From: an uncultured Opitutia bacterium
GTDB taxonomy: Bacteria; Verrucomicrobiota; Verrucomicrobiia; Opitutales; Opitutaceae
Assembly: GCA_903840415.1 (NCBI GenBank)
Contig: CAIMFY010000094.1
Location: 1-64,000, forward strand
Direction of reading: 5' to 3'
Length of the DNA stretch: 64,000 nt
Below, piece after piece: positions 52,357 through 63,602 of this stretch; position 1 is the first letter of the stretch, and every line of letters begins with the position of its first letter. The notes under the pieces were generated by a model. That model did no database searches. It saw only the letters and a list, made by a program, of their open reading frames with translations, and had not been told where the DNA came from. The translations under genes and the position numbers were made by a program.

Positions 52357-52540
52357 GATCTCATCGTGGGAAAAACTTCGCCGGGTGCAAGAGTGGCGCC
52401 GTCGCGCGGGCAAACGTGGCCTTGTGATGCGCCGCGAGCTGCTTAAGTTGGCGACCCGTGAAATCACCGATCGATCTCATCGTCCAGCCGGACGGCTTAA
52501 TAGCGGACTGGCGTGCGCGACTGGCGCGCGTCGCGCTGCG

Positions 52541-54316
52541 ATGAGGACGGTGATCGATCCGGCGGCGCTGCTGATGAAGCGCGTGCTGCGGCTGCTGCGC
52601 TGGCGGCTGTGGGTGCAGGAAAAACTTCAGCCGACGGAGTGGCAGGTTACGTTGCTCTGGGCGGGATTTGCCGGGTTTCTAGGCGCGTTGGCATCAATGA
52701 TGTTCTCGGCACTGGCGGAAGGCGTGCATGGATTTTTCGGCCGGACGAACGTCGATGTGGTCGATTCCATGCGGCAAATGCCGTGGTGGGGTTGCCTGCT
52801 GGTGCCGACGCTGGGCGGCGCTTGCGCCGGGCTGGTGTTGCTCTACGGCCAGCGCCTCGCGCGCAGCCAGAGTTCCACCGACTATATGGAAGCCATCGTG
52901 ATCGGTAACGGTCAGGTGCCGATTCGCGCGAGTTTGGTGAAGAGCACGGCGGCGCTGTTTTCCATCGGATCGGGCGGCTCGATCGGACGCGAGGGTCCGA
53001 TGGTGCAACTCGCCGCGATGATGGCTTCGTTTGTCGGTCGCTGGCAGAAATTCACGCCGCCACAACTGCGGCTCATCGTCGCGTGCGGGGCCGCGGCGGG
53101 CATCGCCTCAGCCTACAATGCCCCCATCGCCGGATCGTTTTTCGTCGCGGAAATTATCCTCGGCTCGATCGCGATGGAAAGCCTCGGGCCGCTGGCGGTG
53201 TCGGCGGTCGTGGCGACACTCACGATCCGCGTGCTCACCGCGGCACACGTGCTGTATCGCGTGCCGGCGTTTCAGCTCAACTCGCCGTGGGAGATGGGGC
53301 CGTATGTCGTGCTGGGACTCATCTCCGGCACGCTGGCGCCGTGGTTTTTGCAGTCGTTGAAAAAGGCGGAAGAGTTTTTCGTATCGCTGCGTCTGCCGCT
53401 CGTGGCGCGCCTCGCGCTCGGTGGGCTCGCCGTCGGTGTGATTGCCATCAACGTGCCCGATGTCGCGGGCAACGGCTACTCGGTCGTCGTGCGCATCTTG
53501 AACGGGGCGCTGCTCTGGAAAGTTTTGCTCGGCATCTTCGCGTGCAAATGGCTCGCGACGATGGCGTCGTTCGGCTCCGGCGCGCCGGGCGGCGTTTTTA
53601 CGCCGTCGTTGTTCATGGGCGCGAGCACCGGTTACCTGTTCGGCATGGCCGTGCACGCGGTCTGGCCGGAAGCAGCGCAGGACCCACGGGCTTTCGCGCT
53701 GGTTGGCATGGGGGCGTTTCTGTCCGCGGCGAGCCATGCGCCGGTGATGGCAGTGATCATGTTGTTCGAGATGACACTGAGCTACGATATCATCCTGCCG
53801 CTGATGCTGTGCAGCGTCGTGGCCTATTACACCGCGAAGGGCATCGTGGGCGCTTCACTCTACAGCGACTCGCTCCAGCGGAAAACACAGAGCGCCGAGT
53901 CGGCGGCGCCGTTTGCCGAATCCCGCGTCGCCGATCTCATGCGACCGAAGCCGCCGGTGGTCCGCGAAACGGCGCGCTTCGCGGAAATTGCAGGGACGTT
54001 TCTCAAAGTGCGGGTGAACAACCTCTATGTCGTCGATGACGCCAACCGCTTTCTCGGCGTGGTCTCGATGCACGACATCAAACCCTACCTCGGCGAACCC
54101 GAACTCGCGGATCTCGTGATCGCGCGCGACATCCTGCACGATGACTTCCCGCGCGTGGCACCGGAGCAACCGCTGGCAGAGGCGTTGGGGAAATTTCTCG
54201 GTATCGTGGCCGAAAGGCTGCCGGTGGTCGATCGCGATGGCGGGCTCCGCGGGAGCCTGTCCAAGACCGATCTATTGCTCGCACTCGTGGAGAAACGGAA
54301 GAAGCCGGCTGGCTGA
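52541..54316 (+). CDS. ClC-type chloride channel/antiporter with C-terminal CBS pair
   Basis: The protein has 591 residues from the ATG at 52541 (ATG 52574 is an alternative). The ClC selectivity motifs are GSGGSIGREGPMVQLAAMM (about residue 143) and GAPGGVFTPSLFMGAS (about 347), with the spans between them. The gating Glu is present in GREGP. CBS domain one includes ADLMRPKPPVVRETA and NNLYVVDDANRFLGVVSMHD; CBS two includes FPRVAPEQPLAEAL and RLPVVDRDGGLRGSLSKTD. CBS pairs normally bind adenine nucleotides and tune transport. Whether it is a channel or a H+/Cl- exchanger cannot be decided without aligning the proton-pathway Glu. Confidence 0.92.
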   Translation: MRTVIDPAALLMKRVLRLLRWRLWVQEKLQPTEWQVTLLWAGFAGFLGALASMMFSALAEGVHGFFGRTNVDVVDSMRQMPWWGCLLVPTLGGACAGLVLLYGQRLARSQSSTDYMEAIVIGNGQVPIRASLVKSTAALFSIGSGGSIGREGPMVQLAAMMASFVGRWQKFTPPQLRLIVACGAAAGIASAYNAPIAGSFFVAEIILGSIAMESLGPLAVSAVVATLTIRVLTAAHVLYRVPAFQLNSPWEMGPYVVLGLISGTLAPWFLQSLKKAEEFFVSLRLPLVARLALGGLAVGVIAINVPDVAGNGYSVVVRILNGALLWKVLLGIFACKWLATMASFGSGAPGGVFTPSLFMGASTGYLFGMAVHAVWPEAAQDPRAFALVGMGAFLSAASHAPVMAVIMLFEMTLSYDIILPLMLCSVVAYYTAKGIVGASLYSDSLQRKTQSAESAAPFAESRVADLMRPKPPVVRETARFAEIAGTFLKVRVNNLYVVDDANRFLGVVSMHDIKPYLGEPELADLVIARDILHDDFPRVAPEQPLAEALGKFLGIVAERLPVVDRDGGLRGSLSKTDLLLALVEKRKKPAG

Positions 54317-54325
54317 GCGGGCAAC

Positions 54326-55879
54326 TTATCTGAATGTCTCCTGGGGCATCCGCTCGCCGGGAGGAAGCGCCTGCGCCAGACCGGCAAGCGCGGCGTTGAA
54401 CAGCAGGCGCCGCTGCGCCGCCGACAATCCCGGCTCCAGCATCGCGATCCGGTAGTCCTTGTAGATAACTTCGTCGCGCCCGAGGGCGTCGAACGCGTTG
54501 TTCGAGGCGTCGAGGTTGCGAAGCAGTTGGGCGGAGTCCGGGTGTTTACCCGTGTCTGGTTCGATTTGCGTCGCGGCAAATTCATCGAGCCCCCTCAGCA
54601 GTTCGGCGCGATGCTGTTCGAGGGCGGCGTAACGTGCGACGTTTTCCTGTCGGTAGTCGGTTTCCGCCAGTTTTCGGGCCTCGTCGATCTTGGCGGCATG
54701 TTCCTGCATACTTTGCCGGATTTCATCGGGCCCGCCGGATAGTTGCAACCGGTTCGAAGTGATGATCGATTTAATCATGCGCTCGGTCAGGCCCGCGGTG
54801 AGATACCGCTGCTCATCCTTGACCACGGTGTTGAGCTGGACCAGCGCGGGTGGCAGGTGCGTCAGCCGCGGCGGCGGCGCGGGCGGCAGGGTCGCGAGCT
54901 GTTGACGGATTTCGTCGGCGAGGCGTTCGAGCGTGAGGATGCGCGGCGCCTGGCTGGCCGCGAGATCTGCAAACGCCCGGGTGCGCGCGCCTTCGCTGGC
55001 GGAATCCTGGGCGTTGATCGTCTCGCGCATTTCGCGCTTCAACACTTCGCGATCGTGATAAAATCTGCCGAAAAGATCCTTTAATGCCGGCGAAAGACCC
55101 GGCGGCAGGTGCCAGCGCGCGGTGGCGGGTGAGAAAAACACCCAAGTCGGATCGGTTATGGCCGGACGCCGTGGCCCGGCGCGAGTTTGCTCCTCTAATT
55201 GCAGCGCGAGTTCGCGCACGAGGCCGCGTTGTTCGACTGTGAGGCCGGGCTGGTAGTAGGCGGTGGCGCGCACGACCCGGGCCTCGGCCCGCGGCTGGAC
55301 TACGGCGGAAAGATTTTTGTCACCGAGATGCCAGTCGCGTTCGTCGTTCCAGTCGGCGCTGGATTTCAACAGGCCGCCCCGAACGAGTTCGTCGCGGATT
55401 CGCTCGGCGTCGCGTTCGAGTGCCGCGAGCGCGGCGGCCTGCATCGGTGCAAACGTGCGCAACTCTCGTTCGCGCGAGGCAGCATCGGCATTTTTCAGCG
55501 CCTCGAGCCGGGCCTTGAGCTCGTCGAGCAACGCCAATCGTGCGTCGATGTAGCTTTTCAACCGGGCGGCGAGTTCCTGGCTCAGAGTCTTTCTGGACAG
55601 GCGCGTGCCTAGCGCCGGATAAAAAAATTCCCCGACATGGACGGCCAGTTCCTCCGGCGCGACGAACCTACGGACGCCATTGATAATGACGCTCGAGCTA
55701 TTGTTCAGAGCCTGCGAACCAAACCGCGGTGTCGGCGGCGGGAAGAACGCGAGTTTGGGATCGTCTTGAGGAAATTCTTGGGCGGGCGCCTGAGCGGCGA
55801 TTGTCATCAGGCCGACGAGGGCGAGCGCAAGTTGCGCCGTACGGCAGCGCAAGCGACGCAGAGACAAGGAGGCGAACAT
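54326..55879 (-). CDS. secreted helical protein of unknown family, paralog A (phosphate locus)
   Basis: The protein has 517 residues. The signal peptide QLALALVGLMTIAAQAPAQ is followed by mostly helical sequence. Blocks shared with the protein at 58242-59852 in the same order are FFYPALGTRLSRK, ERDAERIRDELVRGGL, AYYQPGLTVEQRGLVREL, WVFFSPATARWHLPPGL, LERLADEIRQQLATLPPAP, and near the C-terminus DYRIAMLEPGLSAAQRRLLF. I do not recognise the family and see no enzyme motif; the heptad-like character suggests a structural or binding role in the periplasm. It is divergent from the phosphate porin, and the 179-base region between them contains a Pho-box-like repeat. This suggests expression under phosphate limitation. 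Confidence 0.75.
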   Translation of the reverse strand: MFASLSLRRLRCRTAQLALALVGLMTIAAQAPAQEFPQDDPKLAFFPPPTPRFGSQALNNSSSVIINGVRRFVAPEELAVHVGEFFYPALGTRLSRKTLSQELAARLKSYIDARLALLDELKARLEALKNADAASRERELRTFAPMQAAALAALERDAERIRDELVRGGLLKSSADWNDERDWHLGDKNLSAVVQPRAEARVVRATAYYQPGLTVEQRGLVRELALQLEEQTRAGPRRPAITDPTWVFFSPATARWHLPPGLSPALKDLFGRFYHDREVLKREMRETINAQDSASEGARTRAFADLAASQAPRILTLERLADEIRQQLATLPPAPPPRLTHLPPALVQLNTVVKDEQRYLTAGLTERMIKSIITSNRLQLSGGPDEIRQSMQEHAAKIDEARKLAETDYRQENVARYAALEQHRAELLRGLDEFAATQIEPDTGKHPDSAQLLRNLDASNNAFDALGRDEVIYKDYRIAMLEPGLSAAQRRLLFNAALAGLAQALPPGERMPQETFR

Positions 55880-55974
55880 TAGGGGACCTGCAGTTTTGGC
55901 TTGTCGGAGCGGTGGTCAAGCCGCACGGGGCCGGCCCGATCTCCGCGGGAGCTGCGATGCGGGGTTTTGCAGCT

Positions 55975-56016
55975 TTGTCACGCATCCGCCACGCGTTCGT
56001 AACATTGGTCCGTCAC
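55975..56016 (+). promoter_or_regulatory. Pho-box-like direct repeats upstream of the porin
   Basis: TTGTCAC (55975), CCGCCAC (55986) and TCGTAAC (55997) are spaced exactly 11 bases apart, and CCGTCAC follows at 56010. The E. coli PhoB site consists of CTGTCAT-like 7-mers repeated every 11 bases, in the same orientation relative to the gene. The site ends 42 bases before the porin ATG and lies about 95 bases upstream of the divergent gene. Confidence 0.55.
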
Positions 56017-56058
56017 TTTGGAGGTGATCCAGCAATCCAACACTTGATCACCCACCAC

Positions 56059-57324
56059 ATGCTTAAACTGAAATCATTATCGATAGCGCTGCTCGGCAGC
56101 GCTTTGTTTGCCAGCTCCGGCTTCGCGCAGGACAGCGGCCCACTCATCAATCTCCTCGTCAAAAAAGGACTCGTAAACGATCAGGAGGCCGAAGAACTGC
56201 GCGCCGATCTATCCCGCGACTCCGCCGCTGCCGTCGTCTCGACGATCTCGGGCGGCAAGAGCACGGTTGGCCTTTCTATCACCGGTCGTATGCAGGTCCA
56301 ATATGCCGGCCTCAGCACCCAGATCAACGGCACCCCGGTTAATCCCGTTTCGACGGAGCACTTTTTCCTGCGACGGATTTACCTCGGGGCCAAAGCCAAT
56401 CTCGGCAACGGCTGGTCGAGCACGTTGAATTATGATTTCGCAGGCCTGACGTTCGATCAGGCGTTCATCACGTGGAGAAAGGACGACGCGCTGGCCGTCG
56501 ACGTCGGCTTCCGCAAGGTGCCGTTCGGTTTGGAAGAATGGTATACGTCCAGTGGCAGCCTGAAGGCGATCGAGCGTTCCCCGGGCACGCGTTATTTTGT
56601 CGAGGCCAATAACGGACGCCGCTTGGGCGCGGGCAGCTACCGCATCGGTGCGTTTGCCGGCGGCAAGTTTGACAACGGCGTGTTCTACAATGTCGCCGTC
56701 ACCAACCCTGAGCGCGACGAATCCTCGCTGGGCACGGCGGCTGGCGTCGCCTTCTCCGGCAATAATACCAACAACTCCCTTTCAGAGTGGGGTAATCTCG
56801 GTTACGTGGGCAAAATCGGCACGGGTGAAGAAGCCGGTACCTACACCCTGAGCAGTTCGATCGGTTTCCTGCCCGATCAAGGTGGCAAGACTCTCGGCGT
56901 CGGCGACAATCTGACCGTTTACAACGCCTTCGCCGACATCGTCAAAGGTCCCTTCGACCTACAGCTCGAATACTTCGGCAGCTCAAACGACCACGGTGTC
57001 TCCGCGACGCAAAATTCCAAGAGCAGCGCTTACTCGATCCAGCCGGCCTACACGATCGGCAACATCGAATATGCGGTGCGCTACACCTTCGTAAATTCCG
57101 ATAACCGGGGCGTGAATTTGAGCGACGGCATTCGTTCGGCCCCCGGCGGCGGCACGATGAATAAAATGTCCGAATGGTTCGTTGGTGGCACCTATTTCTT
57201 CCGCGGCAACGACGCCAAATTGCAGCTCGGCTATATTGCTGGCCAATCGAAGGACACCGTCACGGGCGGAGCCGCCAAAGCTTCAAGCGAAGGCGTGCGC
57301 AGCCAGATGCAAGTTAATTTCTGA
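56059..57324 (+). CDS. phosphate-selective porin (OprO/OprP family)
   Basis: The protein has 421 residues from the ATG at 56059, with the signal peptide MLKLKSLSIALLGSALFASS. A short helical region (LLVKKGLVNDQEAEELRADL) precedes the barrel, as is common for OprP-like porins in this phylum. Barrel strands alternate (RMQVQYAGLSTQI, FFLRRIYLGAKANLGNGWS, AVDVGFRKVPFGLEEWYTS) and the last strand ends in Phe (SQMQVNF), the outer-membrane assembly signal. It likely lets phosphate or polyphosphate into the periplasm. pstS follows after 37 bases, and a Pho-box-like repeat lies upstream. Confidence 0.92.
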   Translation: MLKLKSLSIALLGSALFASSGFAQDSGPLINLLVKKGLVNDQEAEELRADLSRDSAAAVVSTISGGKSTVGLSITGRMQVQYAGLSTQINGTPVNPVSTEHFFLRRIYLGAKANLGNGWSSTLNYDFAGLTFDQAFITWRKDDALAVDVGFRKVPFGLEEWYTSSGSLKAIERSPGTRYFVEANNGRRLGAGSYRIGAFAGGKFDNGVFYNVAVTNPERDESSLGTAAGVAFSGNNTNNSLSEWGNLGYVGKIGTGEEAGTYTLSSSIGFLPDQGGKTLGVGDNLTVYNAFADIVKGPFDLQLEYFGSSNDHGVSATQNSKSSAYSIQPAYTIGNIEYAVRYTFVNSDNRGVNLSDGIRSAPGGGTMNKMSEWFVGGTYFFRGNDAKLQLGYIAGQSKDTVTGGAAKASSEGVRSQMQVNF

Positions 57325-57361
57325 TCGCTCCTTACCTCCAACTAAAGATTTCCAACTCACC

Positions 57362-58174
57362 ATGAAAAAACTCACGTTACTCGCGATCGCGGCTCTCGCC
57401 GTCACTTCGCTCCACGCGCAAAAACTCGTCATCAAGGGCTCCGACACGCTCGGCGCCAAACTCGTCCCGCAACTTGCCGAAGCCTACAAGGCGAAGAACC
57501 CGGGCGTCTCCTTCGAGATCGCTGCCGAGGGTTCGACCACCGGCATCACCGCCATCATCGACGGCACCGCGCAGATCGGCATGAGTTCGCGCCGCGCGAA
57601 GCCCACTGAAATGTCGGCTGGCACCGCCAAGGGTGTCACCCTCAAGCCGACCATCGTCGCCCACGATGGCATCGGCATCATCGTCAGCGCCGCGAACCCG
57701 CTGACCAAACTTACGGCGCGCCAGGTGGAGCAAATCTTTGCCGGTGACATCACCGACTGGTCCGCCGTCGGCGGCAACCCCGGCAAGATTTCAATCTACA
57801 CCCGCAACACTTCGTCGGGCACTTACTCGGACTTCAAGGCACTCGCGATGAAGAATCGCGACTACGCCGGTTCCTCCCAGAAAATGGCCGGCAACGAACA
57901 GATCGCTGCGGAAGTGGCGAAAAATCCAACCGGCATCGGCTACGTCGGGCTCGCCTACATCAACGACGCCGGGGTGAAAGTCGTCGCCGTGGACGGCAAG
58001 ACGCCGACACCGGAATCCGTGCTCAACCACACCTATCCTTATGCCCGTCCGACGTTCTACTACACGAACGGTGATGCGACTGGTGAAGCGGCGAAATTCC
58101 TCGAGTTCACGCTCAGCGACGAGGGTCAGAAGATTGTCCGCGAAGTCGGCTTCGTCAGCCCGCCGAAGTCCTAA
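57362..58174 (+). CDS. pstS: periplasmic phosphate-binding protein PstS
   Basis: The protein has 270 residues with the signal peptide MKKLTLLAIAALAVTSLHA. The phosphate-binding loops of the PstS family are visible: IKGSDTLGAKLVPQL, AAEGSTTGITAIIDGTAQIG, MSSRRAKPTE, YTRNTSSGTYSDFK and NPTGIGYVGLAYI. It captures phosphate for the PstCAB transporter. It shares a transcript with the porin and ends at a strong terminator (58197-58226). pstC, pstA and pstB are therefore driven separately from their own promoter 1.8 kb away. Confidence 0.95.
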   Translation: MKKLTLLAIAALAVTSLHAQKLVIKGSDTLGAKLVPQLAEAYKAKNPGVSFEIAAEGSTTGITAIIDGTAQIGMSSRRAKPTEMSAGTAKGVTLKPTIVAHDGIGIIVSAANPLTKLTARQVEQIFAGDITDWSAVGGNPGKISIYTRNTSSGTYSDFKALAMKNRDYAGSSQKMAGNEQIAAEVAKNPTGIGYVGLAYINDAGVKVVAVDGKTPTPESVLNHTYPYARPTFYYTNGDATGEAAKFLEFTLSDEGQKIVREVGFVSPPKS

Positions 58175-58196
58175 TCGATTCAGTCGATGGTTCTCG

Positions 58197-58226
58197 ACGC
58201 GCCGGAATTTCCGGCGCGTTTTTTTT
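58197..58226 (+). terminator. rho-independent terminator after pstS
   Basis: A 10-bp perfect stem (ACGCGCCGGA / TCCGGCGCGT) with a three-base loop is followed directly by eight T. It lies 23 bases after the pstS stop. Confidence 0.95.
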
Positions 58227-58241
58227 GACCGGCCTCGGCTT

Positions 58242-59852
58242 TCACCAACCGGCCGCCCGCCGAGCCGGTTGATATTCTCCGCGCGGCAATGGCAGGTTGA
58301 GTTCGACGATGGCGCCGCCGAAAAGGAGTCGGCGTTGCTCGGGCGACAAACCCGGCTCAAACACGGCGAGTCGGTAGTCTCGATAGGCTGCCTCCGAATC
58401 TTTGAGCGTCGCGATGCGATGGGCCTCAGTGAGGGCGGCCTCGATCGCCCGGGAGTTGACGTTGCCGAGCGCCGCGGCGGCGTCGGCACGGATCGCGTTG
58501 GCTTCGTTGAGGAGCTCGGCGTAACGGCGCCCAAAATAGTCGGCGATCTCGCTCATTCTTGCCTCGATGGCTTGCACGCGCGGCGTGATCCGCTGCACCT
58601 GGGCGTTGGCGTCCCCCGCAGAAGTCGCCCGGTTGGGCCGAGCAAACACTTCGTATTTCAGGCCGGACGAATCGAACGAATAGTTGAGCTGAATCGGCTC
58701 ATTCCGAGCAGCGGCGCGAACCGCATCGATGCTGGCGATGGTCTCCTTTTGCAGCGTGGCGCCTTGCCGAACCACCGCGTTGAAGCGCTCGGCGAGCACG
58801 GGAGGCAGCGGGGAGTGCTCAGACACCGGGTGGGTTGCCGAGGGCAAGGCCGCCAGACCGCGGCGGATATCTTCGGCGAGTGTCTCTAGTTCCGCGAGGG
58901 CACGAGCCTGTTTTACCGCGAGGGACTTCAGGGCATTGTTGCGCAGGAAAAAAACGGCGGCGTTGTCCTGCTGGTAAACCGTGTCGTAGAGTTCCTTTTT
59001 TACAGCGGATTTTTTCGTCTGATAGGCGGCGACTCTGGCCGCGAGATCGGCGGGGAGATCGTCGGGCAGCAGGACGCGCGCGGGTTCGGGTGAGAAAAAC
59101 AGGAAGGGTTGGGCGGCTTCGGCTGCGGCGGTATCTTCACCCGCCACGGCAAGTTCGAGCGAAATCTCCCGGAGCAGGCGGCGTTGGGCATCGGAAATGC
59201 CGCTCTGGTAGTAGGCGTAGGCGCGCAGCGTCGCGGCGATTTCCATCGGCGAATCGCCGCGGCGGTTGTTCTCACCGAGCGACCATTCGCGCAGGGCGCG
59301 CCAGTCGTAATTGCCGATGGCGAGGTCGTCGCGGATTTGCTCGGCCTCGCGTTCGAGCGTGACCAACTGGAACTTCTGCTGCTGAGCGAGGGCCACCAGC
59401 GCGCGCTGGCGGGCGGCCTGATCGACGTCGCGGGTTTGCTCGAGCGCGGCGTGAAGTTCGCTGAGGGCGTTGGCCTTGGCCGTGTGCAAGGCATTGATCC
59501 GATCGCGCATTTTGTCACTGAGCGCCCTTTCCAGCAGCCACGTGCTGAGCGGCGCGTAAAACGGTTCGTTAATGTCCGCCGCAAGATCGGCTGGCGGCGT
59601 GAACCGCGGTGGCAATGATGACACCACGTGAGTGATCGGTCGGTCAAGCGGCGGCGGCATGGGCGGAAAACAAATCACCACGGGACGCATCGAGAAGTTT
59701 CCCTCGCCACCCATTCCCCTCGAACGCTGCACCGGCATGAGATTTCCGTTGTCTTGCGCTCGGCCGGCGACCGTCAACAGGACAATCGGCACGACCAGCG
59801 AGAGGCGTCGGAGCGTGTGTCGGCAGACGAGAATCGCGCAAAAAAAATTCAT
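58242..59852 (-). CDS. secreted helical protein of unknown family, paralog B (phosphate locus)
   Basis: The protein has 536 residues from the ATG at 59852 (ATG 59903 is possible), with the signal sequence LRRLSLVVPIVLLTVAGRAQ. The same ordered blocks occur as in paralog A: PFYAPLSTWLLERA, EREAEQIRDDLAIG, AYYQSGISDAQRRLLREI, FLFFSPEPARVLLPDDL, LETLAEDIRRGLAALPSA, and DYRLAVFEPGLSPEQRRLLF near the C-terminus. Identity between the two is moderate, so the duplication is old. The N-terminal MGGEGNFSMRPVVICFPPMP is unlike paralog A. No known motif is seen. It is divergent from pstC, and the intergenic region holds a second Pho-box-like repeat, repeating the arrangement of paralog A with the porin. 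Confidence 0.75.
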   Translation of the reverse strand: MNFFCAILVCRHTLRRLSLVVPIVLLTVAGRAQDNGNLMPVQRSRGMGGEGNFSMRPVVICFPPMPPPLDRPITHVVSSLPPRFTPPADLAADINEPFYAPLSTWLLERALSDKMRDRINALHTAKANALSELHAALEQTRDVDQAARQRALVALAQQQKFQLVTLEREAEQIRDDLAIGNYDWRALREWSLGENNRRGDSPMEIAATLRAYAYYQSGISDAQRRLLREISLELAVAGEDTAAAEAAQPFLFFSPEPARVLLPDDLPADLAARVAAYQTKKSAVKKELYDTVYQQDNAAVFFLRNNALKSLAVKQARALAELETLAEDIRRGLAALPSATHPVSEHSPLPPVLAERFNAVVRQGATLQKETIASIDAVRAAARNEPIQLNYSFDSSGLKYEVFARPNRATSAGDANAQVQRITPRVQAIEARMSEIADYFGRRYAELLNEANAIRADAAAALGNVNSRAIEAALTEAHRIATLKDSEAAYRDYRLAVFEPGLSPEQRRLLFGGAIVELNLPLPRGEYQPARRAAGW

Positions 59853-59961
59853 GCGAAGACGGGCGCCCTGGGACTCCCCTGGATCGCGAGTAGTGTCAGC
59901 CATGCGAATGAACCCGCACCGGGACTCAACGCAAATCTTGCCAATCGCGCCGCGGGCCGGC

Positions 59962-59979
59962 ACGTCACTTGATTGTAAC
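59962..59979 (+). promoter_or_regulatory. Pho-box-like direct repeat upstream of pstC
   Basis: ACGTCAC and TTGTAAC lie 11 bases apart in the direction of pstC, ending 51 bases before its ATG. This matches the GTCAC...GTAAC pattern and spacing found upstream of the porin. The flanking bases TGACGGTTGTTCAT (59991-60004) may be a further degenerate unit. Confidence 0.5.
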
Positions 59980-60030
59980 AGCGGCCAGCTTGACGGTTGT
60001 TCATCGGGCGGGCGTGTTGCTAGTGACCCA

Positions 60031-61635
60031 ATGAGCGAGTCTACTGCCACCCGAGAGCCTCCCGCTTTCGCCGTCTCGAAAAAACGGCTGCGACTCCTCG
60101 GGCTCACGCTGGACGACGCGATCAAGGTGTTCTTTGGCGGCAATGCGTTCGTCTCGGTCATCGTGCTCGCGCTCATCACGATTTTTCTTTTTCGCGAAGG
60201 CTTCGGCTTCTTCGGTCAGAATCGCCAGAATCTCCGCATCTACCGCCAGGCCGGACTCGAATATGTCGATTTCATTCGCACCCAGACCGACGATCACACC
60301 GCACTGACGCGCTACCTCTCAGACCTGCGGCTGCGTCAGCTCAGTTTTTTCTTGCAGGAAAAAAAACTCTCCCTTGCCGACGCGAATGCCGCACTCGCCG
60401 CTTTCGATGACTTCGCCGATCGCTTTGGGACCGCGATCGATCCGCTGCGGGCGATGGTCTCCGATCTGACAGAGCAGGCGACCGAGATCAAAACGAAGTT
60501 CATTGTAGCCGGCGATAAACGGGAGGAGCGGCGGCAGTTGACCGCGGAGGGGAAGACGGCCGACGCGGCGGCAGTGAAAATCGACGAAGTCAATTTCACC
60601 AACGAGTTGAAACCGCTGCTGGCCACTCTGCCGACCTACCGAGCGGTGAATCGTGAACTGGAGCAGAAACTAAAGGGCGTGCTCGACACGGCCCCGCCGC
60701 CTCCGACACCCGAACTGGCGGTCCGTTTCGATCGGTTCAAGGATCTGGTTCAGATCTACGTCGCGGGCTTTCCTGCCGTCGAAAAAAATTTGGAGACGTG
60801 GGACTACCTTAAGTCCGTTCCGGTATCGCAGGCGTTCACGGCATTTGTGTTCGGGCACGAGTGGCTGACAGCAAGTTTCTGGCAGGATTGGTATGGGGTG
60901 GTACCGCTATTCGTTGGATCGCTGATGGTATCGCTCGTCGCCCTGGTGATCGCGGTGCCGTTCGGCGTTGGGGCGGCGATCTACGTGAACCAGATCGCCA
61001 CCGCCGCCGAGCAGAAGTTCATCAAGCCGTGCATCGAATTTATCTCGGCGATTCCCTCGGTCGTGCTCGGGTTTTTCGGAATCGCGGTGCTCGGTCAGGC
61101 GCTCCGCCTACTGTCTCAACAGTCGTGGCTTTCGTGGGTGCCGGGGTTTCCCTACAGCGAACGCCTTAACATCCTGACTGCGGGTTGCCTGCTCGCGCTG
61201 CTGGCGGTGCCGACGATCTTCACGCTCGCAGAGGACGCGCTCAACAACGTTCCGCGCGCATTCAAGGAAGCCTCTTTTGCGCTCGGCGCCTCGCGGCTCC
61301 AGACGATCGTGAAGATCATCGTGCCGGCGTCGCTGTCGGGCATCGTTTCCGCCGTCCTGCTGGGCCTCGGCCGCGTGATCGGCGAGACGATGGTAGTGCT
61401 CCTCTGCGCGGGCAACCGGATCGCCATTCCGGACTTTTCCGCCGGACTCGCCGTGATTACCCAACCGGTGCACACGATGACCGGCATCATCGCGCAGGAA
61501 ATGGGCGAGGTCGTGCGCGGCGGCATTCATTATCGCGCGCTGTTCGTCGTGGGCCTGCTGCTCTTTTTGCTCTCCTTGCTCATCAACTATGTCGCGCAGG
61601 GCATCGTGCGGCGCTACCGGATTTCCATCGGTTGA
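60031..61635 (+). CDS. pstC: phosphate ABC transporter permease PstC with large inserted domain
   Basis: The protein has 534 residues from the ATG at 60031, against about 300-330 for ordinary PstC. TM1 (AFVSVIVLALITIFLF, residues 38-54) is followed by roughly 230 extra, mostly helical residues (IYRQAGLEYVDFIRT, LRLRQLSFFLQEKKLSLADA, LEQKLKGVLDTAPPP) before the normal core starts at YGVVPLFVGSLMVSLVALVI (about 287). The permease motifs are intact: AIPSVVLGFFGIAVLG, EASFALGASRLQTIVKIIVP (EAA loop) and GRVIGETMVVLLCAG. The insert should lie on the periplasmic side, where it could contact PstS or the porin. pstA follows after three bases. Confidence 0.93.
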   Translation: MSESTATREPPAFAVSKKRLRLLGLTLDDAIKVFFGGNAFVSVIVLALITIFLFREGFGFFGQNRQNLRIYRQAGLEYVDFIRTQTDDHTALTRYLSDLRLRQLSFFLQEKKLSLADANAALAAFDDFADRFGTAIDPLRAMVSDLTEQATEIKTKFIVAGDKREERRQLTAEGKTADAAAVKIDEVNFTNELKPLLATLPTYRAVNRELEQKLKGVLDTAPPPPTPELAVRFDRFKDLVQIYVAGFPAVEKNLETWDYLKSVPVSQAFTAFVFGHEWLTASFWQDWYGVVPLFVGSLMVSLVALVIAVPFGVGAAIYVNQIATAAEQKFIKPCIEFISAIPSVVLGFFGIAVLGQALRLLSQQSWLSWVPGFPYSERLNILTAGCLLALLAVPTIFTLAEDALNNVPRAFKEASFALGASRLQTIVKIIVPASLSGIVSAVLLGLGRVIGETMVVLLCAGNRIAIPDFSAGLAVITQPVHTMTGIIAQEMGEVVRGGIHYRALFVVGLLLFLLSLLINYVAQGIVRRYRISIG

Positions 61636-61638
61636 CCC

Positions 61639-62709
61639 ATGAACATTGCCGCGGGAGGGCACATTTTTCAGAGCCAACCCAACGCCGCACGGCGCTGGGA
61701 GCACGCCACTTTCTGGCTGTTTCGCGCCGCGACCTACCTGGTGCTCGGCTGCGGGTTGTCGGTGTTCGCAACGATCGTTTTCAAAGGCACGCGGGCGCTG
61801 GTGAAGCCGGAGGCCCCGTTTATCAACACAACCTTTTTCACCGATGCGCCGGAGACGCTCTATGTCTTCACGTTTGAGGGGAAAGGCTATGCGCAAGGCG
61901 ACCGTGAGCACCGCGCGTTTATTGCCGCGCACCCGGCGGCGGCCCGGGTCAAGGCGGAGAGCTACGTCTACTCCGCCGGTGGAATTTTTCCCTGTATCGT
62001 TGGCACTTTCCTACTCGTTGTTGGCTCGATGGCGATCGCGCTGACGCTCGGCGTGTGTGCGGCGATTTACCTCAACGAATATGCTCGCGACGGCGCCTTC
62101 ATCCGTTTCGTGCGGCTCGCAATCCTCAATCTGGCGGGCGTGCCCTCGATTGTTTTCGGCCTGTTCGGGTTCGGCATGTTTGTGATTGGGTTCAAAGTGT
62201 TCGGCGTCCAATTTTTTGGCTGGAACGTCTCGCTGGCGGCGGGCTGGTTCACGCTCGCATTCATGGTGCTGCCGGTGGTCATCACCGCGAGTGAGGAGTC
62301 GCTCAAGGCTGTGCCGATGGGCTTCCGGGCCGGATCACTCGCACTCGGCGCGACGAAGTGGCAGACGATTCGGAAAAACGTCCTGCCGTATGCGCTGCCC
62401 GGAATTCTCACTTCATCGATTCTTGGCATCGCCCGCGTGGCCGGCGAGACCGCGCCAATCATGTTTACGGCTGCCTATGTCGTGCGCGATAAGCTGCCAT
62501 GGGATGTCGCCAAGGTCAGCGATTTCTTTTTCCAAGGCGTGATGGCGCTGCCCTACCACATCTACGTCGTCAGCTCGAAAATTCCGCAGAACGAGTATAC
62601 CGAACGCGTGCAATACGGCACCGCCTTCGTCTTTCTGCTGGTGGTCGCGCTGATTGCCGCCACTTCGATTTTGCTCCGCAACAAACTGCGCAGCCGCTAC
62701 CAATGGTAA
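61639..62709 (+). CDS. pstA: phosphate ABC transporter permease PstA
   Basis: The protein has 356 residues. TM1 ([19 protein letters not shown]) is followed by a periplasmic stretch of about 65 residues ([20 protein letters not shown] ... [11 protein letters not shown]) that is longer than in enteric PstA. The core holds [67 protein letters not shown] (EAA loop) and [12 protein letters not shown]. It pairs with PstC to form the phosphate channel. It sits between pstC and pstB; the end may overlap the pstB start if ATG 62703 is used. Confidence 0.95.
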
Positions 62710-62726
62710 CCAGCGTTCCCATCCTC

Positions 62727-63602
62727 ATGGACACCCGACCTTCCGCGCCCTCGACTGCCCCGGCGGCGGGCAAACCCACCGTGCGGCCCCCGGCCGTCGG
62801 CGCGTCTGCCGTGGCTTCGCCCGCCGCACTGAATTTACCCGCCGCCACCACGCTGATCGACATCGAACAGGTGGATTTTTTCTACGGTGCCACCCAAGCG
62901 CTCGCCGACATCAACTTGAAGATCGACGACAGGAAGGTCACCGCCTTCATCGGCCCGTCCGGATGTGGCAAATCGACGCTCCTCCGCTGTCTGAACCGGA
63001 TGAACGACCTGATCGAAGGCGCCCGGGTTTCCCGTGGCACCATCAGGATTCGCGGCGTGGAAATTTATCAACCTGATGTTGACGTGATCGAATTGCGCAA
63101 GCGCGTCGGCATGGTCTTCCAGAAGTCGAATCCGTTTCCGAAATCGATCTACGAGAACATCACCTACGGCCTCCGCCTTCAGGGGCGCTCGGACAAGTCT
63201 GATCTCGACGCCGTCGTCGAAAAATCCCTCCGCGGCGCTGCGCTTTGGGACGAGGTGAAGGATCGCCTCGACACCAGCGGTCTCGGCCTCTCTGGCGGTC
63301 AGCAGCAGCGGCTCTGCATCGCCCGTGCGATCGCGGTCGAGCCGGAAGTCATCCTGATGGACGAGCCGTGTTCCGCTCTCGATCCTGTTGCGACGGCGAA
63401 AGTCGAAGAGCTGATTCAGACTCTGCGTGAGAACTACACCATCGTCATCGTCACGCACAACATGCAGCAGGCGGCGCGCTGTTCGGACAAGACGGCGTTC
63501 TTCTATATGGGACGGCTTATCGAATACGCCGACACTCGGAACATTTTCACCAACCCCGCCAACCCCCAGACTGAGGCTTACGTTTCCGGCCGTTTCGGCT
63601 GA
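62727..63602 (+). CDS. pstB: phosphate ABC transporter ATP-binding protein PstB
   Basis: The protein has 291 residues from the ATG at 62727; ATG 62703, overlapping the pstA stop, is an alternative and gives 299. A Pro/Ala-rich N-terminal tail of about 45 residues is additional to the family. The ATPase core is complete: Walker [22 protein letters not shown]-loop [20 protein letters not shown], signature [20 protein letters not shown], Walker [16 protein letters not shown] and the switch His in [15 protein letters not shown]. It powers phosphate import. phoU follows after 10 bases. Confidence 0.97.

Follow-up and report, generated by a model that had tools for sequence, protein, structure and literature searches.

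Putative secreted three-hairpin repeat proteins of Opitutaceae at phosphate-uptake loci and in regulator-kinase operons: a candidate QseEGF-like accessory family

We analyzed a window of 64,000 nucleotides (positions 1 to 64,000 of contig CAIMFY010000094.1, assembly GCA_903840415.1) from an uncultured Opitutia bacterium of the family Opitutaceae, in which two paralogous genes, here denoted Fam1 and Fam2, lie beside phosphate-uptake genes. Both belong to an undescribed, Opitutaceae-centred protein family that has so far been seen almost only there. Its members were found in two recurrent settings: beside phosphate-uptake genes, and in operons with an NtrC-type regulator and a histidine kinase. 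The reading that we favour, with a probability of roughly 0.52, is that Fam1 and Fam2 are secreted periplasmic proteins made of three helical hairpins, that their kinase-linked relatives are accessory proteins resembling those of the QseEGF system, and that copies without a kinase were recruited to phosphate loci. The analysis used sequences and models only, and what it yields are genomic associations rather than proof of function.

Gene calling and tblastn searches with reference proteins served to annotate about 100 neighbourhoods of 3-20 kb, and key neighbours were checked with Pfam. Loci and genomes in this sample carry L-numbers and G-numbers, respectively. The genomes are mostly metagenome-assembled and some contexts end at contig ends. 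A member was counted as phosphate-linked if it lay within 2.5 kb of a Pst, PiT, NptA or porin gene; the PiT and NptA contexts rest on tblastn, as simple gene calling overlooked these genes under or as unknown open reading frames. The tree was a quick one with some long branches, and the counted loci are non-independent samples.

Fam1 and Fam2, both on the minus strand, share 33% identity over 465 aligned residues (pairwise alignment, E value 1e-49), and a search of the window genome returned them as its only family members. Scans of both proteins with Pfam and NCBIfam gave no credible family, nor did a scan of 77 relatives against all of Pfam (E 0.05), and the literature searched does not describe such a family for Opitutaceae. 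Family members were present in 87 of 252 Opitutaceae genomes. A phylum-wide sample of 387 genomes added one weak match outside Opitutaceae (E 5e-6). Named genomes scanned with a single protein as query gave no match; searched with a closer alignment (A4), they gave 24 loci, many of them titled Opitutaceae, Opitutus or Opitutae. The N-termini of Fam1 and Fam2 resemble Sec signal peptides and hold no lipobox, and both proteins are predicted to be secreted to the periplasm. Calls of signal peptides and lipoboxes rest on simple sequence patterns, by which 4 of 100 members have a lipobox-like string. The initial annotation, which had described two paralogs of an unknown secreted family with signal peptides, was therefore borne out on each of these counts, as far as N-termini can be read by pattern.

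An AlphaFold2 model built from 77 sequences is almost all-helical and consists of three long hairpins (predicted local distance difference test score 90, predicted template modelling score 0.86). The hairpins are mutually homologous, with hhalign probabilities of 98.9, 96.8 and 96.6%, and profile comparison showed that a GLSxxQRRLL motif occurs twice. The ordered motifs noted earlier in Fam1 and Fam2 are real and common to the whole family (alignments A1 and A2); given the three homologous hairpins and the doubled motif, part of this ordered set reflects internal repetition. Foldseek and VIA-align searches of the PDB, with the whole model and with an N-terminal two-repeat model, gave generic long-helix matches only, with best Z scores of 7.5 and 7.8, which lie within noise for helical models. 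A profile search of PDB sequences found nothing (best E 0.077). An enzymatic role was considered and seems unlikely, since the invariant positions of the 77 members hold R, P, Y, A, G or L, which do not look like a catalytic set.

The clade of Fam2 comprises 32 rows (Shimodaira-Hasegawa-like approximate likelihood ratio test 100), and 25 of these have a phosphate-uptake gene within 2.5 kb. The arrangements differ. In the window and at L038, L039, L081 and L088, pstS and pstC flank the family gene, which is on the other strand; it is head-to-head with a porin gene at L099 and L101; and it is downstream of DUF47-PiT at L034, L091, L098, L104, L108, L110, L113, L115, L117, L118, L120 and others. 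Where a transporter separates DUF218 from the family gene, PiT is replaced by a sodium/phosphate cotransporter (NptA) at L103 and L106 and by a second PstSCAB set at L100. At this position the transporter has been exchanged for a non-homologous one while the family gene was kept. By our estimate, given that the window genome has a single pstC and a single PiT locus, adjacency to phosphate genes would arise by chance in about 1% of cases. A second small clade (L027, L033, L085 and L123) is phosphate-linked in 4 of 4 rows. A conserved link to phosphate uptake, kept despite replacement of the transporter, thus holds for the clade of Fam2.

The second setting accounts for 27 further rows, in which the family gene lies between, or adjoins, an NtrC-type regulator and a histidine kinase. 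At L029, Pfam matched Response_reg, Sigma54_activat and HTH_8 in the regulator gene and HATPase_c in the kinase gene that flank the family gene. One such kinase was searched across Opitutaceae and gave 38 close matches (at least 48% identity), of which 37 had upstream DNA that could be assessed. A full family member lies upstream of 30 of these kinases, a different secreted protein upstream of six, and neither upstream of one (L162). The third hairpin forms the C-terminus of all six different proteins (E 1e-17 to 1e-22), so that 36 of the 37 kinases have either a family member or a third-hairpin protein upstream. The third-hairpin model matched no non-family gene in a set of 1262 called genes. 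The third hairpin is thus, by sequence comparison, the part of the protein that tracks the kinase.

Several loci bring the two settings together. At L028 the order is PiT, regulator, family gene, kinase and then PhoU-PstBAC; at L084 DUF218-DUF47-PiT is next to regulator, family gene and kinase; and at L119 these three genes lie beside PhoR-PhoB-PhoU. Genome G034 (L161 and L170) has, in exactly the place and orientation that Fam2 has in the window, an operon that encodes a regulator, a secreted protein, a third-hairpin protein and a kinase; it is located between pstS and pstC and runs on the strand opposite to them.

Few systems, most of them in Proteobacteria, are known in which a periplasmic accessory protein tunes a sensor kinase. 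In the QseEGF system, qseG lies between qseE and qseF, which encode a kinase and a sigma-54 regulator; QseG, an outer-membrane lipoprotein, binds QseE through its C-terminal helices and activates it (PMC6075780, PMC12691602). About 30 relatives of Fam1 and Fam2 are, like QseG, helical secreted proteins whose genes are flanked by those of a histidine kinase and an NtrC-type regulator, and in both cases it is the C-terminal part that is tied to the kinase, through binding in QseG and through tracking here. The differences are also clear. Fam1 and Fam2 have no lipobox, the family is about twice the length of QseG and has three hairpin repeats, the gene order is regulator-accessory-kinase, and many kinase-less copies lie at phosphate loci. 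None of the 77 members matched the QseG/YfhG family (PF13942) in the scan of all of Pfam at E 0.05. With no lipobox and no sequence match, we do not claim membership in the QseG family. CpxP with CpxA/CpxR and ZraP with ZraS/ZraR are further cases in which an accessory protein of the periplasm modulates a two-component system (PMC6737893). The family would resemble them in this role, and differs from them in gene order. The Pfam families LTXXQ (Spy/CpxP) and Metal_resist were matched neither by Fam1 and Fam2 nor by the 77 relatives, and no Spy-like fold was among the structure matches listed for the whole or the two-repeat model. ZraR is also a sigma-54-type regulator.

Taken by analogy with QseG and QseE, the kinase-linked members would sense or adapt a periplasmic signal, which the third and C-terminal hairpin would relay to the kinase. 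Copies that lack a kinase, Fam2 among them, would have been retained at phosphate-uptake loci, and may there have a periplasmic role in phosphate uptake or in how it is sensed. Secretion to the periplasm, kinase binding, signal transfer and the modulation or monitoring of phosphate uptake by kinase-less copies are inferred.

Several observations weigh against this reading. No kinase of this type was found in the window genome at E 1e-40 or better, so neither Fam1 nor Fam2 has an obvious cognate kinase, and the two themselves lack the regulator and kinase neighbours that characterize QseG. The third hairpin of the Fam2 clade differs from the kinase-linked type. The kinase at L162 has no such protein upstream. 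Neither setting was found in 19 of the 52 rows outside the Fam2 clade, and the same holds for 10 of the 12 rows of the Fam1 clade.

The phosphate link proposed for both proteins was not upheld for the Fam1 type, in which it is limited to 2 of 12 rows, the window copy and L154 (a tandem copy). Of the nearest relatives of Fam1, L025 lies beside a sulfate permease and a ClC gene and L026 lies elsewhere; genome G001, from the same genus as the window, has a single family member, of the Fam2 type. A family member of another subfamily occupies the porin/ClC flank at L027, L085 and L099, and the slot of Fam1 may therefore be non-accidental. Fam1 is probably a kinase-less copy from another subfamily at this flank, with a weaker phosphate link than Fam2. 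The two genes were thought to be divergent duplicates; they are paralogs, but deep ones that fall in different clades of the tree, which argues against a recent local duplication. Their proposed role as an undescribed member of the phosphate-starvation response is likewise supported in part, by the conserved link in the Fam2 clade, and weakened by the Fam1 clade and by the orientation of the Pho-box-like repeats described below.

On the contig, the gene order is ClC, Fam1, porin, pstS, Fam2, pstC, pstA and pstB, with only Fam1 and Fam2 on the minus strand (Table 1). Fam1 (start 55879) and the ClC gene are tail-to-tail. Fam1 is head-to-head with the porin gene (ATG 56059) and Fam2 (start 59852), between pstS and pstC, with pstC (ATG 60031), as originally described.

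Table 1 Features of the window discussed in the text.
Feature	Coordinates	Strand	Basis
Fam1, secreted three-hairpin repeat protein, 517 residues	54326..55879	minus	open reading frame list, alignment, tree
Fam2, secreted three-hairpin repeat protein, 536 residues	58242..59852	minus	open reading frame list, alignment, tree, model
Fam2 third hairpin, residues 341-470	58443..58832	minus	hairpin profile comparison
Pho-box-like repeats GTCAC/GCCAC/GTAAC (11-bp steps) and GTCAC, oriented to porin	55977..56016	plus	
Pho-box-like repeat GTCACttgattGTAAC, oriented to pstC	59964..59979	plus	
ClC-type chloride channel/antiporter, recurrent family neighbour	52535..54316 (start approximate)	plus	
Porin, phosphate-selective O/P type	56059..57324	plus	partly Pfam match of a homologue
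pstS, phosphate-binding protein	57362..58174	plus	
pstC permease, long N-terminal region before permease domain	60031..61635	plus	
pstA	61639..62709	plus	
pstB	62703..63602 (start approximate)	plus	

Both shared intergenic regions contain the 11-bp-spaced GTCAC/GTAAC repeats reported for them. In the porin/Fam1 region these are GTCAC at 55977, GCCAC at 55988 and GTAAC at 55999, with an extra GTCAC at 56012. The pattern of GTCACttgattGTAAC in the Fam2/pstC region, GTCAC-N6-GTAAC, occurs only twice in the 4.9-Mb window genome; the second site (G000:C74:84221-84236, L197) lies upstream of a gene identified by eye as dnaA-like. A scan of 1.66 Mb of related loci for exact GTMAC-N6-GTMAC gave 22 matches, of which some 14 immediately precede pstC, porin or DUF47-PiT. 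The presence of boxes in both regions could mean that Fam1 and Fam2 both belong to a PhoB regulon, a reading compatible with the others considered here. We lean against it: the boxes are oriented to pstC and porin, they occur at pstC or PiT promoters with no adjacent family gene (L090, L091, the pstC of L099, and L123), and in the exact-pattern scan the large PiT-downstream group had none directly upstream of the family gene. The element was proposed to be shared; it is present in both regions but, given its orientation and its occurrence without the family, it most probably belongs to the transporters, and the boxes alone are no proof that Fam1 or Fam2 is regulated by phosphate. The locus and its repeats recall the Pho regulon of PhoB/PhoR with PstSCAB-PhoU, from which it differs in that the boxes here point at pst and porin genes. 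We know of no canonical Pho regulon that includes such a periplasmic repeat protein, and found no study of Pho boxes in Verrucomicrobia.

A bolder form of the favoured reading would make the family a new class of three-hairpin periplasmic signal adaptors that arose inside an NtrC-type three-component system. Its kinase-free copies would serve in the periplasm as dedicated sensors of the uptake of inorganic phosphate (or anions), or as its regulators, and would work with any phosphate transporter whose genes lie next to theirs. We consider this version doubtful.

It was also suggested that Fam1 and Fam2 form a periplasmic scaffold. The phosphate-linked members would then be transport-accessory or scaffold proteins binding porin, PstS or PstC, and the kinase-linked ones would do a similar structural job for other transporters. 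The 25 phosphate-linked rows of the Fam2 clade adjoin several kinds of uptake gene, several kinase-linked operons are divergent from a DUF3450/ExbB/ExbD/TonB-like block, and the long helical hairpins of the model could span part of the periplasm. We nevertheless regard this explanation as unlikely. Association of the third hairpin with the kinase persists where the remainder of the protein has been replaced, the family is absent from most genomes that have pst (PstC was present in 118 of 130 genomes, the family in 87 of 252), and the transporters served are structurally unrelated, which argues against one conserved transporter interface. The location of many relatives between a regulator and a kinase points to signalling rather than to a scaffold. 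These relatives lie mostly away from pst and pho genes, so that homologs without a pst, pho or porin link, which the initial annotation had named as evidence against its proposal, do exist for part of the family. An obligate phosphate scaffold is unlikely in particular, because a link to phosphate is scarce in the Fam1 clade, the Pho boxes are directed at pst and porin genes, and a family gene is missing from most pst operons.

The related proposal of a factor bridging the porin and PstS/PstC was not supported either. PstC of the window has about 300 residues before its permease domain, and Pfam matches only residues 309-530. This long N-terminal form was found in most Opitutaceae genomes, including many without the family, while some match only over the permease domain. 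No bridge to the PstC insert is therefore needed, and a pairing of the family protein with the long N-terminal region was dropped because that form of PstC is near universal in Opitutaceae.

It is also unlikely that the family has a general function in the envelope, such as that of a periplasmic chaperone, and that its proximity to pst reflects synteny within one lineage. This reading would agree with the unrelated neighbours of the Fam1 clade and several other members and with the ClC, SNF2 and Rbs genes whose synteny is likewise conserved around many loci. Against it, adjacency is kept while the transporter changes (PiT, NptA, PstSCAB, porin/pstC) across several genera and at least three arrangements, and the kinase association is near complete (36 of 37).

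Other secreted proteins recur in the regulator-kinase operons. In one genus (L097, L140, L141, L143 and L152), the NtrC-type regulator and the family gene are separated by the gene of an extra secreted protein of about 227 residues that matches nothing in Pfam. Other undescribed secreted proteins, often in tandem, occur at L159 (1165-3045), L164, L149 (7597-8535), L154 (6930-8009) and L161 (7984-9027); they contain stretches like VSDDYxRTxLPDGSFQPE or PAYYVAYDxGYIExGDPIAGEKPP, and in some of them the third hairpin is fused on. At L165, L168 and L169, which have more distant kinases, small secreted, helical-looking proteins lie between regulator and kinase, and one at L165 resembles the repeat hairpin (E 2e-8). 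The DUF3450/ExbB/ExbD/TonB-like cluster is divergent from the operon at L029, L111, L127, L128, L133, L137, L138 and L148, in several genera; DUF3450, the first gene of the block at L029, was checked there with Pfam and the other genes were named by eye.

We found almost no published work on phosphate sensing in Verrucomicrobia. If the favoured reading is correct, the family would be an independent, lineage-specific accessory system with a new architecture and a separable candidate kinase-docking hairpin, and with natural kinase-less copies beside several unrelated phosphate transporters. It would thereby offer a direct route to asking how Verrucomicrobia reuse a signalling protein of the periplasm for the uptake of nutrients.

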